From positions 1 through 64,000 of the forward strand of contig JALONG010000020.1 in the NCBI GenBank assembly GCA_025455065.1: DNA of 64,000 bases, in the 5' to 3' direction. The notes under the pieces were generated by a model that saw only the letters and a program-made list of their open reading frames with translations, did no database searches and was not told the origin of the DNA. The stretch is from Candidatus Kapaibacterium sp. Its GTDB lineage: Bacteria > Bacteroidota > Ignavibacteria > Kapaibacteriales > UBA4661. The first letter of the stretch is position 1. Each line of letters opens with the position of its first letter. Below, piece after piece: positions 8,374 to 24,825 of the stretch. The position numbers and the translations under genes were made by a program.

Positions 8374-8448
8374 GCACAGACATTTTTGTCTGTGCGTACC
8401 CCCCTAACACAGCACCAAATCTCGCACAGGCAGAAATGCTTGTGCCAC
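8374..8448. repeat. Dispersed palindrome, one near-perfect and one diverged copy
   Basis: At 8374-8395 the arms GCACAGACA and TGTCTGTGC flank a TTTT loop. A diverged copy lies at 8424-8445 (arms GCACAGGCA and TGCTTGTGC). Both are edged by a GTGG or CCAC extension. The same element is found at 8527-8552 and, in coding sequence, at 21625-21870. Confidence 0.85.
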
Positions 8449-8526
8449 TGAAAGGTTCTCAACACGTAATCTGAATAATGTCTAATACCAATTCGAGTTG
8501 ATAACTGTGCAAAAAAATCCGGCTTC

Positions 8527-8552
8527 AGTGGCACAGACATTCTTGTCTGTGC
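8527..8552. repeat. Dispersed palindrome, third intergenic copy
   Basis: AGTG is followed by GCACAGACA (8531-8539), the loop TTCT and TGTCTGTGC (8544-8552). It matches the copy at 8374 except within the loop. Confidence 0.85.
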
Positions 8553-20786: not shown

Positions 20787-21908
20787 TCACCTGACAGGCG
20801 TAAGACGAAAACCTTGTTTGCGCAAAAGATTGATAACACCCTGTTCTCCCGCAAGATGCCCCGCACCGACGGCAATAAATGTTGATTTTGACCGAATCAT
20901 TCGCTCCAAAATTGGTATCCATGCGCGATTGCGGCGATTCAGCAGCACTTCCTCGAACTCGCCTGCTTCCTGCGCCCGAAGGAGTTCCAATAAATCAGAA
21001 ATTTTACCTTCTTTGTAGAGTTTCGTTACGCTCTGCAAACTCAGCCCAGAGGCTTCAGTGCTAGGATTCATCATGCTTTTGAGGTCGCCGACAAGCATTT
21101 CCGCTTGCTGTTTGTAGGGGAGATAATCAAACAGTGCAAGCTGTTCTTCAACTGTTTCTATGCCGAGTGTCGGCTTTTTTTGCTTTTTAGCGAGACTCAC
21201 AAATTCCTCTTCATATGATGTTTGCTCACATTCTTGCTCTCCTTCCAAGAGCATTGTTCCCAAAAACATCGGTTTCATGCGGTTCATCGGGGGAAAAAGC
21301 GGTACGCCCAGAGAATCTTGAAAATATGCGCGGACAAACTCCATAGAAGCCGTATCCAAGAGCATTTCCAGCGTCGTATCGCCTTTCATCAATGCGCCTT
21401 TTTCCAGCAGTCCGAACATATCGCCGCCCTCAATATTCCCCATGTCAATTTCCATGGCAAGTTGTTTTGTTTGGCTGAAAACCCGCTTGGTTGCTTTGCT
21501 CATCACCACATCATTCTCACAAATGAGATGAATTGTTCCAAAAAGATACGACGGCGCTTTCAAGCCATTTCCGTCTATTTTCCAAAGCAGAGAATTTACA
21601 GGCAAAACATCGTCTTTCCTCATCGTAGCATAGACATTCTTGTCTGTGCCATAAACGCCGCTAGGCGTAACGACAGGAATTCTACAGGCTGCTGCCGTTA
21701 GAATACTATACGCTGCGCTTAACTGAGTGTTTTTCCTCGCCGTAGCACAGACATTCTTGTCTGTGCCATAAACGCCGTGAGGCGTAACGACAGGAATTGT
21801 GCGAGCAACTACCGATGGAAGATTATACGCTGCGCGTATTGGTGGCACAGACAAGAATGTCTGTGCTACAGTGAGGAATGTGAGGAGAATTGGCAATCGA
21901 ACAATCAT
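20787..21908 (-). CDS. TraB/GumN-family protein with repeat-derived N-terminal insert
   Basis: The 373-residue product has an N-terminal signal-like segment and, from about residue 107, the TraB/GumN domain: LLWKIDGNG, FGTIHLI, later AMEIDMGN and near the end AVGAGHLAGEQGVINLLRKQGF. The family is related to Tiki metalloproteases; GTIH and GAGHLAG carry the expected metal-binding residues. Residues from about 13 to 98 are unusual: they are encoded by three copies of a GCACAGACA-type palindrome and a 117-base direct repeat that adds 39 residues in frame (IPVVTP.GVYGTDKNV.AT at 38-56 and again at 77-95). The start overlaps the stop of the amidase gene by four bases (ATGA), so translation is coupled. 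Confidence 0.82.
   Translation of the reverse strand: MIVRLPILLTFLTVAQTFLSVPPIRAAYNLPSVVARTIPVVTPHGVYGTDKNVCATARKNTQLSAAYSILTAAACRIPVVTPSGVYGTDKNVYATMRKDDVLPVNSLLWKIDGNGLKAPSYLFGTIHLICENDVVMSKATKRVFSQTKQLAMEIDMGNIEGGDMFGLLEKGALMKGDTTLEMLLDTASMEFVRAYFQDSLGVPLFPPMNRMKPMFLGTMLLEGEQECEQTSYEEEFVSLAKKQKKPTLGIETVEEQLALFDYLPYKQQAEMLVGDLKSMMNPSTEASGLSLQSVTKLYKEGKISDLLELLRAQEAGEFEEVLLNRRNRAWIPILERMIRSKSTFIAVGAGHLAGEQGVINLLRKQGFRLTPVR
21615..21870. repeat. In-frame tandem repeat with palindromes inside the TraB/GumN gene
   Basis: Two direct copies of about 117 bases (21615-21731 and 21732-21848) each contain the palindrome with arms near GCACAGACA and TGTCTGTGC. A third palindrome follows in opposite orientation (21842-21870). 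Since 117 is a multiple of three, the reading frame stays open. The same palindrome is intergenic at 8374-8552. Confidence 0.85.
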
Positions 21909-23782
21909 TTGGAAACCGCTTTGGATGTAGTTTTGGAAGGCGTGGAAGTATGTTTTGACGAAGATTTTGTTACCGTTTTTGTCGAAGCGGCTTTTTGTGG
22001 TGCAACTTTGGTAACGGGCGCAACTTTTGTGTCTGTGGCGGGATTACCGGAAGAAGAATTGGAGAACTGCCCGTTAATTTGCGCTTCATACCGCATACGA
22101 AATGCTTTGATTGCCCTGCAAATAGCGCTTGCCATCTGGGTTTGTCCGCGTTCCGATTTCAGAAATTTTTCGTCTTTTTTGTTCGACAAAAATCCTGTTT
22201 CAATCAGCATATTCGGCATCGAAGCGCCCACCAGCACAAGAAAACCGGCTTGATTGACACCGCGAACGCCGATTTCTCGCATTTTCTTCACTTCCGCACT
22301 TATCATCGCGGCTGCCATGTCGCTGTATTTCACAAAAGCGCTTTGTGCCATGCTTACAACAATAAACTGCTCGTCGGTAAGCGGTTTGTAGCGTTTCGGG
22401 TTATCTTCTAATTTTATCACCGCATTTTCCATTTCTGCAACCCGCACGGCATCTTCGTTTCTGCCCGGTCGCAAAATGTAAACCTCAAAACCGTTTGCTT
22501 TTGTAGGCTTTTTCGGAGTAGAATTGCAGTGAATACTGATGAACAATTTTCCCCCGTTTTCATTGGCAATCTGCCCGCGCCTATCAAGTTCGACAAACGT
22601 GTCATCGGTGCGCGTATAGACGATTTTTGTTCCCGGAAGCGCCTTTTTGAGCAGTACGCCGAGTTTTTTCACAATACCCAAGGTTACATCTTTTTCTTTC
22701 GTTTTTCCCACACCAATCGCGCCACCGTCCTTGCCGCCATGACCCGCATCAAGAACAATTACATCCAATGCCCATTTTTTTTTTGCCGAACTGAAGTCGT
22801 TATCGCCTTGTGCGTCCTTTTTTTTTTCGCTCTGTTTTTCCTTCGAGGAAGCGCTTGGTTTCTTGCTTATCGGCTCATTGTTCGTGGAGTTTTTTTTTTC
22901 GGCAGTTGGCTTTGTTTTTACGGCTTGGAATAAAAGGCGCGAAACAAGTAATTGCGCTGCATACCGCGTTGTTCCTGAATTTTTGGGATATTTTTCTAGC
23001 TGCTGTGGAGAATGAAGCGATGTTTTTTGCGGTAATTCGTCCATTTCACGCCGTTTTACATCTTGTGGCAAAATGTACAAATTGCGCGTTGGTTTGCGAA
23101 ATTGCTTGGAAGGCTGTTGTGGAGCGGGTTGTGGGGAAGGTTGAGTAGCATTGCTCTTCGGCAACCCCATTTCAACCACGTCGGGAAGCGGTTTTCGGGC
23201 AATCGTTGTTTGTGTTTCTAATGCCTGCGGAGCGTCATTTTCCTCATTACCAAAACTTTTTAAGACGATAGTTGCATCTTGCTCATCTACTTCGTACACG
23301 CCATTATCCGCCAAAAGCCGCAGTACGTCATCCACCGGAAGCAAGATTCGCCCCGTTTGCAGTGCCACAGGGTGCAGCATCTGTGTCAAACTTACCGAAT
23401 CACTGTTCACCGCTTGCACCGCCACACAATGCGCATCGGCGGCAAACGCCAAAACGTGCGTTGGCGTGAGAAGCACTGCAAGAATACCTTCGGTGCGAAG
23501 TTCGCAATCCAGCGCCAATGCAAGCGCCAAAGGCTCAACGTACAAGCGTCCGGCCACTTCTACCGTCGTCATAATTTTCGTCGGCTTTTTATCCAGATGC
23601 ACAGCGTAATGCGCTTTGGGGAAGGGTAAATCGTCATACCGCTCTTGTGCTGCAAGAGGGAATACGGCACGAATGGTCAGCAGAAAAAGCCCTGCAAACA
23701 TGATAGCATGACGCTTCGTGGCATAGTGAAAAAATTTCACGGCGAACCCGACCAAGAAATGGAAAACAGAAACAATCATCAT
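21905..23782 (-). CDS. N-acetylmuramoyl-L-alanine amidase (Amidase_3)
   Basis: I place the start at the ATG whose first base is 23782, giving 625 residues, because it overlaps the corA stop as TAATG. A second in-frame Met about 27 residues later would start a cleaner signal peptide (MFAGLFLLTIRAVFPLAAQ). Next comes a copper-amine-oxidase-like or AMIN-like beta domain (about 50-190), then a Pro/Lys/Ser-rich linker. The catalytic Amidase_3 domain has DAGHGGKDGGA, RRGQIANE, FISIHCNST and MLIETGFLSN, which contain the zinc ligands and catalytic Glu. The enzyme cuts stem peptides from peptidoglycan in the periplasm. The tail is Thr/Lys/Ser-rich and low in complexity. The gene lies between corA and traB/gumN and overlaps both. 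Confidence 0.9.
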   Translation of the reverse strand: MMIVSVFHFLVGFAVKFFHYATKRHAIMFAGLFLLTIRAVFPLAAQERYDDLPFPKAHYAVHLDKKPTKIMTTVEVAGRLYVEPLALALALDCELRTEGILAVLLTPTHVLAFAADAHCVAVQAVNSDSVSLTQMLHPVALQTGRILLPVDDVLRLLADNGVYEVDEQDATIVLKSFGNEENDAPQALETQTTIARKPLPDVVEMGLPKSNATQPSPQPAPQQPSKQFRKPTRNLYILPQDVKRREMDELPQKTSLHSPQQLEKYPKNSGTTRYAAQLLVSRLLFQAVKTKPTAEKKNSTNNEPISKKPSASSKEKQSEKKKDAQGDNDFSSAKKKWALDVIVLDAGHGGKDGGAIGVGKTKEKDVTLGIVKKLGVLLKKALPGTKIVYTRTDDTFVELDRRGQIANENGGKLFISIHCNSTPKKPTKANGFEVYILRPGRNEDAVRVAEMENAVIKLEDNPKRYKPLTDEQFIVVSMAQSAFVKYSDMAAAMISAEVKKMREIGVRGVNQAGFLVLVGASMPNMLIETGFLSNKKDEKFLKSERGQTQMASAICRAIKAFRMRYEAQINGQFSNSSSGNPATDTKVAPVTKVAPQKAASTKTVTKSSSKHTSTPSKTTSKAVSK

Positions 23783-24825
23783 TATCCCCACCACCCTTTC
23801 CGACGGAATACAAAAAGCATTCCGCTTCCAATCGTAAACAGCAACCCTAACACAAAGTAGTATCCATATCGCCATTTAAGTTCAGGCAAATGTTCAAAAT
23901 TCATTCCGTAAATACCGGTAATGAGCGTCAGTGGTAGAAAAATTGTTGAGAGCATTGTCAAAACCTTCATAATCGAATTCATTTTGTTCGATGTTACCGA
24001 CAAGTGCGCATCCACAAGCCCGTTGATAATATCGCGGTAGGATTCGGACACGTCCACAATCCGCACCAAATGGTCATACACGTTGCGGTAATACGCCATT
24101 TCTTCGGTGGAAACAAGTTCAAACTCGCCTCTCGCCAAACGGCTTAAAATCTCGCGTTGATAGGTAGTAATGCGTTTGAAGCGCTGCATGGATTTTTTCA
24201 ACCGCAGAATCTGCACAAGCAAATCGGGACTGTTAGAAGCAATGACGCGGTTTTCCGCTTCTTCCAAGACATCATCGAAATACTCCATAACGGGCGCATA
24301 TTGGTCAACGATTTGGTCAATGACGATGTGAAAAAGATAGTCCGGTCCACGCCCCAAAATATTTTGATTTTTCCAGCACAGTTGCATCGTGTATTCAACG
24401 GCTAAGGACGGCTCGTAATGGTGCGTTACGATGTAATTCTCTCCCAAAAATGCGTTCAACTGCCGAGTACGAAAATTGATACTAAGCGGCGGATCTTCAT
24501 CATTCTCATCAACCGCATGAATCCTTGCTCCCAAAGGAATATCCACCGGATTAAAAATCACGTAAAGGTAATCGCTGTAATCTTCCACTTTGGGAAAATG
24601 GTCGCCTTCTTCAGGCTGGATGCGCTCTCGCTGACAGTCTTCGACTGCCAAATGGTGAAATAAAAACATCTGAATCAGCACGGTTTCCTCTTCCTGCTCC
24701 GTCGGATTGGTCATATCTACCCAGATAGTCCAATCCTTAAAATCCGGCTCAGTCTGCAAAATACAGAGTTCGCGGATTGTGAGTTGCTTGAGTTTACCGT
24801 TGTTATGACCGACGATTGTTACCAT
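23782..24825 (-). CDS. corA: CorA-type magnesium transporter
   Basis: I chose the ATG at 24825 (347 residues) because sequence upstream of it does not look like CorA and would run into the divergent MscS gene. The protein has the long cytoplasmic funnel with helices of the willow and stalk type, then two C-terminal membrane helices. The signature GMN lies in the loop after the first (ITGIYGMNFEHLPE). CorA forms pentameric Mg2+/Co2+ channels in the inner membrane. The stop codon overlaps the amidase start (TAATG), so corA leads a three-gene coupled unit. The upstream gap to MscS is about 210 bases and must hold divergent promoters. Confidence 0.93.
   Translation of the reverse strand: MVTIVGHNNGKLKQLTIRELCILQTEPDFKDWTIWVDMTNPTEQEEETVLIQMFLFHHLAVEDCQRERIQPEEGDHFPKVEDYSDYLYVIFNPVDIPLGARIHAVDENDEDPPLSINFRTRQLNAFLGENYIVTHHYEPSLAVEYTMQLCWKNQNILGRGPDYLFHIVIDQIVDQYAPVMEYFDDVLEEAENRVIASNSPDLLVQILRLKKSMQRFKRITTYQREILSRLARGEFELVSTEEMAYYRNVYDHLVRIVDVSESYRDIINGLVDAHLSVTSNKMNSIMKVLTMLSTIFLPLTLITGIYGMNFEHLPELKWRYGYYFVLGLLFTIGSGMLFVFRRKGWWG

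Follow-up and report, generated by a model that had tools for sequence, protein, structure and literature searches.

A GTAG-type REP/REPIN array as the probable N-terminus of a TraB-family protein, and its cognate RAYT in the recG reading frame, in a Candidatus Kapaibacterium genome

GTAG-class REPs are short stem-loops with a GTRG tag at one end. They occur in hundreds of copies, often as inverted dimers, lie chiefly between genes and are associated with RAYTs; occasional copies fall within ORFs, those of repair genes included (De Nocera et al. 2013, PMC3733652). The same paper assigns the intragenic repeats of Rickettsia conorii to another class, CGTC, said to be without a dedicated transposase, and warns that REPs at N-termini are often mis-annotated leaders. 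According to Bertels and Rainey (2011, PMC3116915) the dispersed unit is the REPIN, two inverted REPs plus a spacer, proposed to be RAYT-dependent. RAYTs themselves, or TnpA-REP proteins, are HUH transposases recognizable by a DHVH HUH motif, a WQ and a tyrosine in YIxxNP (PMC6006769, PMC8266576; NF047646); one survey set aside a small number of TnpA-Y1 proteins that were longer than expected, taking them for gene fusions or errors of annotation (PMC6006769). The repeat and the transposase described here share the traits given above for GTAG REPs, REPINs and RAYTs, and differ in where the RAYT lies. The consulted part of PMC3733652 has REPs in genes and does not mention a RAYT in frame inside one, and the RAYT of the REPIN account is not part of another gene; here, the RAYT is not a separate gene at all but lies within the reading frame of recG, and its relatives lie in frame in AlaRS, ThrRS and others.

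We began with one window, the whole 64,000-nucleotide stretch of Candidatus Kapaibacterium sp. DNA that was analysed (GCA_025455065.1, contig JALONG010000020.1). The palindrome matches it six times, against 0.03 matches expected from shuffles. The features are listed below; G, C and L numbers are our handles for genomes, contigs and loci.

20787..21908, minus strand: TraB/GumN-family gene, 373 aa, conserved domain from residue 107
21906..21908, minus strand: likely ATG start of TraB, overlapping the upstream amidase stop (ATGA), likewise in same-genus orthologues L032-L035
21845..21866, minus strand: REP copy 3, inverted; tag GTAG, minus-strand loop TTCT, in-frame reading VAQTFLSV
21729..21845, minus strand: 117-bp unit A, 39 codons, PPIRAAYN...GVYGTDKNVCATARKN
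21745..21766, plus strand: REP copy 2, minus-strand reading TDKNVCAT
21612..21728, minus strand: 117-bp unit B, 39 codons, TQLSAAYS...GVYGTDKNVYATMRKD; a direct repeat of unit A, 84% identical across 110 nt, starts 117 bp apart
21628..21649, plus strand: REP copy 1, 1 mismatch, minus-strand reading TDKNVYAT
21621..21623, minus strand: alternative ATG start, Met96, immediately past the last REP; product from here without signal peptide
21905..23875, minus strand: N-acetylmuramoyl-L-alanine amidase gene (Amidase_3), upstream of TraB on the same strand and overlapping its start
8374..8552, plus strand: second REP array, intergenic; copies at 8374-8395, 8424-8445 (degenerate) and 8531-8552

The original prediction for this DNA had placed two direct 117-base copies of 39 codons, and one inverted copy, in the open frame of TraB, and all three were found where it put them. 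It gave them residues of about 13–98; the REP-derived stretch measures about 11–95, and includes GVYGTDKNVCAT and GVYGTDKNVYAT. The intergenic array that it reported at 8374–8552 is also there, with the degenerate copy at 8424–8445 as a third member. REP copies 2 and 3 form a REPIN pair, 100 bp from start to start.

The palindrome had been called dispersed, and it is: a count across the genome (5.61 Mb, 131 contigs) found 263 copies with up to three mismatches, and none for the reversed control. The REP consensus is GTRGCACAGACATTCTTGTCTGTGC. An alignment of 117 copies, drawn, like the context statistics below, from stretches that total 1.62 Mb, or 29% of the genome, takes the form GTRG-CACAGACATTCTTGTCTGTG-C, with the tag at one side only and kept in 112–116 of the 117. 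Neighbouring copies are in inverted orientation in 34 of 45 pairs, mostly spaced by 50–51 or 99–101 bp. Copy number varies from 0 through 1, 3, 98, 210 and 581 to 693 among congeners, a pattern as for mobile DNA. The palindrome thus has the tag, the high copy number, the spaced inverted pairs, the mostly extragenic location and the RAYT flanked by the same REP that characterize GTAG REPs and REPINs, and it is one of them: a non-autonomous mobile palindrome, mostly in inverted REPIN pairs. Copies also lie within about 80 bp of the contig ends of this genome (G000) at C48, C54, C55, C58, C82, C87, C94, C102 and C114, where the repeat probably broke the assembly.

When the copies were mapped against coding sequence, as had been proposed, 62 of 72 clusters proved to be intergenic, in DNA of which a simple hexamer-based gene caller assigns about 88% to coding regions. 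REPs are thus rarely inserted in coding sequence here. The ten clusters that overlap predicted genes are nearly all N-terminal, the RAYT locus excepted. Numerous stop-to-stop frames traverse REPs upstream of genes: of 47 such arrays, 29 are stop-free in the frame of the gene, and 22 and 25 in the other two. With rates this similar in all three frames, it usually costs little for a frame to stay open across a REP, and frame selection as a general claim for upstream arrays was dropped for want of a clear bias. A firmer case than these arrays is one other gene start. A cytidylate-kinase-like gene (C88:124443; the name is our reading of the sequence) has its sole upstream in-frame ATG and GTG codons within the REP at C88:124431-124452, and its start codon likely sits in the REP loop. 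The N-terminal part of a receiver-domain-like open frame (G000 C1:27551-28366) has apparently been replaced by a REP, and the frame is probably a truncated gene.

The Pfam TraB domain (PF01963) of the protein spans residues 107–371 and covers the full profile (190.7 bits, positions 1–263 of 263). A scan of genome contigs with the TraB protein found no orthologue. Comparison with orthologues lacking the insert, another proposed check, was made with seven from the same genus: the REP residues are absent from all seven, alignment to them mostly begins at around residue 94–102, and they have a different N-terminus with an ordinary signal peptide. Overall identity to the closest orthologues is 59–62%. 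The ATGA at which the TraB start overlaps the amidase stop is common to the window and to four orthologues (L032-L035), and this shared overlap argues that the tract is probably translated, from Met1. In-frame, its hexamer score is 0.087, compared with about −0.6 and −0.8 off frame, values that are themselves lowered by stops. The 321-nt 5′ region of the gene has strong RNA hairpin potential and a very stable fold (z = −8.6), which could hinder translation.

The simplest course of events would be that a three-copy REP cluster inserted just 3′ of the TraB start codon, replacing the ancestral signal-peptide region. It would be read as about 85 N-terminal residues, flexible and unconstrained, which the protein, we suppose, tolerates because they fall outside the TraB domain. 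The hydrophobic stretch MIVRLPILLTFLT, together with the V-A-Q read in the frame of the REP, may have rebuilt an A|Q signal-peptidase site, with REP copy 3 (21845..21866) as the possible supplier of TVA|Q. Such a site would suit its surroundings: (small)xA|Q is present in 94 of 199 putative exported proteins of this genome, and near signal peptides the residue after (small)xA is Q 31% of the time, versus 4.2% elsewhere, the same A|Q preference as the Q-rule of Bacteroidetes (PMC5837995). The copy number, the tag, the pairing as REPINs, the lack of these residues in orthologues, the open frame and the conserved start/stop overlap are all observed. The best explanation overall, and one that we hold with reasonable confidence, is that a REP/REPIN array inserted as the N-terminus of TraB, and that its cognate RAYT resides inside the recG frame.

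The rival that survives best says that the tract is an untranslated leader, open by chance, and that TraB truly begins at Met96. We consider this doubtful, though well short of negligible. Most REP clusters are intergenic, upstream arrays are similarly stop-free in other frames (29 versus 22 and 25 of 47), and such leaders are given as a common mis-annotation in PMC3733652. Units A and B, moreover, show no amino-acid constraint: their differences number 9/9/5 at codon positions one, two and three, changing 16 codons nonsynonymously and one synonymously, and at the level of sequence there is no sign of protein-level selection on the two 117-bp units. A start at Met96 would, however, disregard the ATGA overlap common to four orthologues and open about 285 nt between the two genes of a tight pair, and the product would lose the signal peptide that orthologues have between start and domain.

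Decay of the TraB gene, with its signal peptide lost to the insertion, seems unlikely to us: the ancestral signal-peptide region does appear to have been replaced, but the 373-aa frame is intact, the domain is full-length and the protein keeps its 59–62% overall identity to the closest orthologues. More unlikely still is true domestication, in which the tract would be a domain that serves TraB in a selected role. The original prediction spoke of a palindrome domesticated in frame; in frame it is, and its V-A-Q suits the local signal-peptidase preference, but domestication finds no support in a segment that all seven same-genus orthologues are missing, whose units differ by 16 nonsynonymous codons to one synonymous, and whose like shows no frame bias. 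The predicted resemblance to Rickettsia palindromic elements extends to a palindromic insert that leaves a reading frame open and stops there, and we rejected that assignment as most improbable: those elements are of the CGTC class, without a RAYT and with many copies in genes, whereas this palindrome has the GTRG tag, the REPIN arrangement and a RAYT, and about 86% of its clusters (all but 10 of 72) are intergenic. The REP/REPIN array, then, has probably become the N-terminus of TraB, which is nothing out of the ordinary and shows no mark of domestication; as an instance of a mobile palindrome turned protein N-terminus, TraB is a modest one.

What the array led to is, we think, of wider interest. 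One cognate RAYT, an HUH tyrosine transposase, would be the agent that spreads the REP copies. The genome has two Y1_Tnp matches, and the cognate one lies at the start of contig C58 with exact REPs on both sides (57-78 and 567-588); it passes Pfam Y1_Tnp and scores 92.3 with NCBIfam NF047646, for which the cutoff is 80. Its frame runs on into the C-terminal half of RecG. The N-terminal half is at the end of contig C20, and the ends of C20 and C58 overlap by 46 bp, such that the recG-RAYT frame of G000 is one joined across two contigs (L158, L061). In G006 and G007, the same arrangement occurs within a single contig and a single frame. The recG of three species (L158/L061; L154; L159) in the genus therefore has, between helicase motifs II and III, an in-frame RAYT that is bounded by REPs read in the same frame. 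The three RAYTs form one group in the tree (92/84), DHVH and Y115 are invariant among them, and the one pair computable in this genus gives a dN/dS of 0.17. A second RecG was not found in these genomes, the remaining matches looking like Mfd. The RAYT would be made as a RecG-RAYT fusion. AlphaFold2 predicts most of RecG well (best PDB match 1gm5) and the RAYT domain, 510–618, moderately; the linkers, 467–509 and 619–682, which hold the REP-encoded residues, are of low confidence.

No RAYT was found in the recG of G001-G005 or G009. The loop is short in G001, G002, G003, G004 and G009, and in close congeners the site is empty; compared with recG of G001, the G007 insert amounts to 618 nt, or 206 codons, and the C-terminal parts of the two RecGs are 99% identical. 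G005 has a different in-frame palindromic repeat in the same loop (L160; LPEGEGQ...SPSGRGLGEG), from which the loop looks like a permissive site. A cognate RAYT was not detected in G001 or G005, which have 210 and 693 REP copies, respectively, so REPs can persist, or may spread, without one. In G001, a different RAYT-like domain lies within a DNA-methylase-like open frame (L087, on C239) with repeated LTREHAPL peptides, possibly another REP family.

RecG is not the only host. A scan of GTDB genome contigs with this RAYT gave at least 487 loci, and among the best 80, a selection biased towards the query, 24 have at least 100 in-frame residues on both sides of the RAYT; two more, in Ham1-family genes, have 92–98 residues at the short side. 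The hosts identified by Pfam include ThrRS, AlaRS, IleRS, RecG, PurH, Ham1, MgsA, GcvP, PriA, MetH and MTase genes, and related RAYTs lie in frame in the AlaRS, ThrRS, IleRS, RecG, PurH, PriA, MetH and GcvP genes of Verrucomicrobiota and Planctomycetota. Of 28 nested loci, 26 retain both the HUH motif and the catalytic tyrosine. The synthetase loci are these:

AlaRS with nested RAYT: L308-L314, L317, L318, L320-L322, L326
ThrRS with nested RAYT: L208, L224, L236, L305
IleRS with nested RAYT: L242, L251

A less biased sample was provided by 146 genomes of the order of G067 (Limisphaerales), the genome of L224. Nineteen of them contain 26 RAYT matches, every one in a stop-free frame of 332–1540 aa, and two of these frames contain two RAYTs each; G118 and G128 have two in a single AlaRS frame. 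Fifteen of the ORFs were scanned: AlaRS accounts for thirteen and ThrRS for one, and the last shows only the shared tRNA_SAD domain. The interrupted frame holds the sole AlaRS matches in five genomes and the sole ThrRS above cutoff in three, eight of the eight checked, in assemblies that may be incomplete. Where dN/dS of the RAYT was computable it is 0.03–0.24, similar to or below that of the host parts, with dS high or saturated in several pairs. Selection, it would appear, maintains both host enzyme and transposase domain intact in Verrucomicrobiota and Planctomycetota. The RAYTs of L219 and L233 are 91% identical and occupy different AlaRS loops, suggesting that RAYTs move from one permissive site to another. 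The sequence of the verrucomicrobial REP stem varies, and a pattern search gave tens of matches or fewer.

Inteins with homing endonucleases are likewise nuclease-encoding inserts kept in frame in conserved, essential enzymes. The likeness ends with the enzyme, which here is an HUH transposase bounded by REPs. No intein domain was found in the nested ORFs scanned with Pfam; the RAYT residues presumably stay in the protein. Nesting of a RAYT or other transposase in recG or synthetase genes was not described in any title or abstract retrieved from the open-access literature on RAYTs and on transposase domains in these genes. Unless we misjudge these loci, and we are somewhat more inclined to trust the reading than to doubt it, some RAYTs are no longer separate genes but are permanently built into housekeeping enzymes (in this genus RecG; elsewhere AlaRS, ThrRS, IleRS, RecG, PurH, PriA and others) as in-frame domains that are catalytically intact, produced in fusion with the host and kept under purifying selection. 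The host would ensure expression and block loss, and the RAYT would sustain REP populations, in the manner of an intein without splicing.

The main lead, and the one worth following, is the in-frame RAYT in recG, which has parallels within essential enzymes in other phyla. In several phyla, genes for essential enzymes have RAYTs within their reading frames, at loops that recur, and this bears directly on how a RAYT can be kept as a single copy that is inherited vertically. Nesting could explain the unexpectedly long RAYT proteins that were discarded in the survey (PMC6006769). If nested RAYTs are expressed as fusions, they would represent a new mode of transposase persistence, tied to a gene that the cell is unable to lose.
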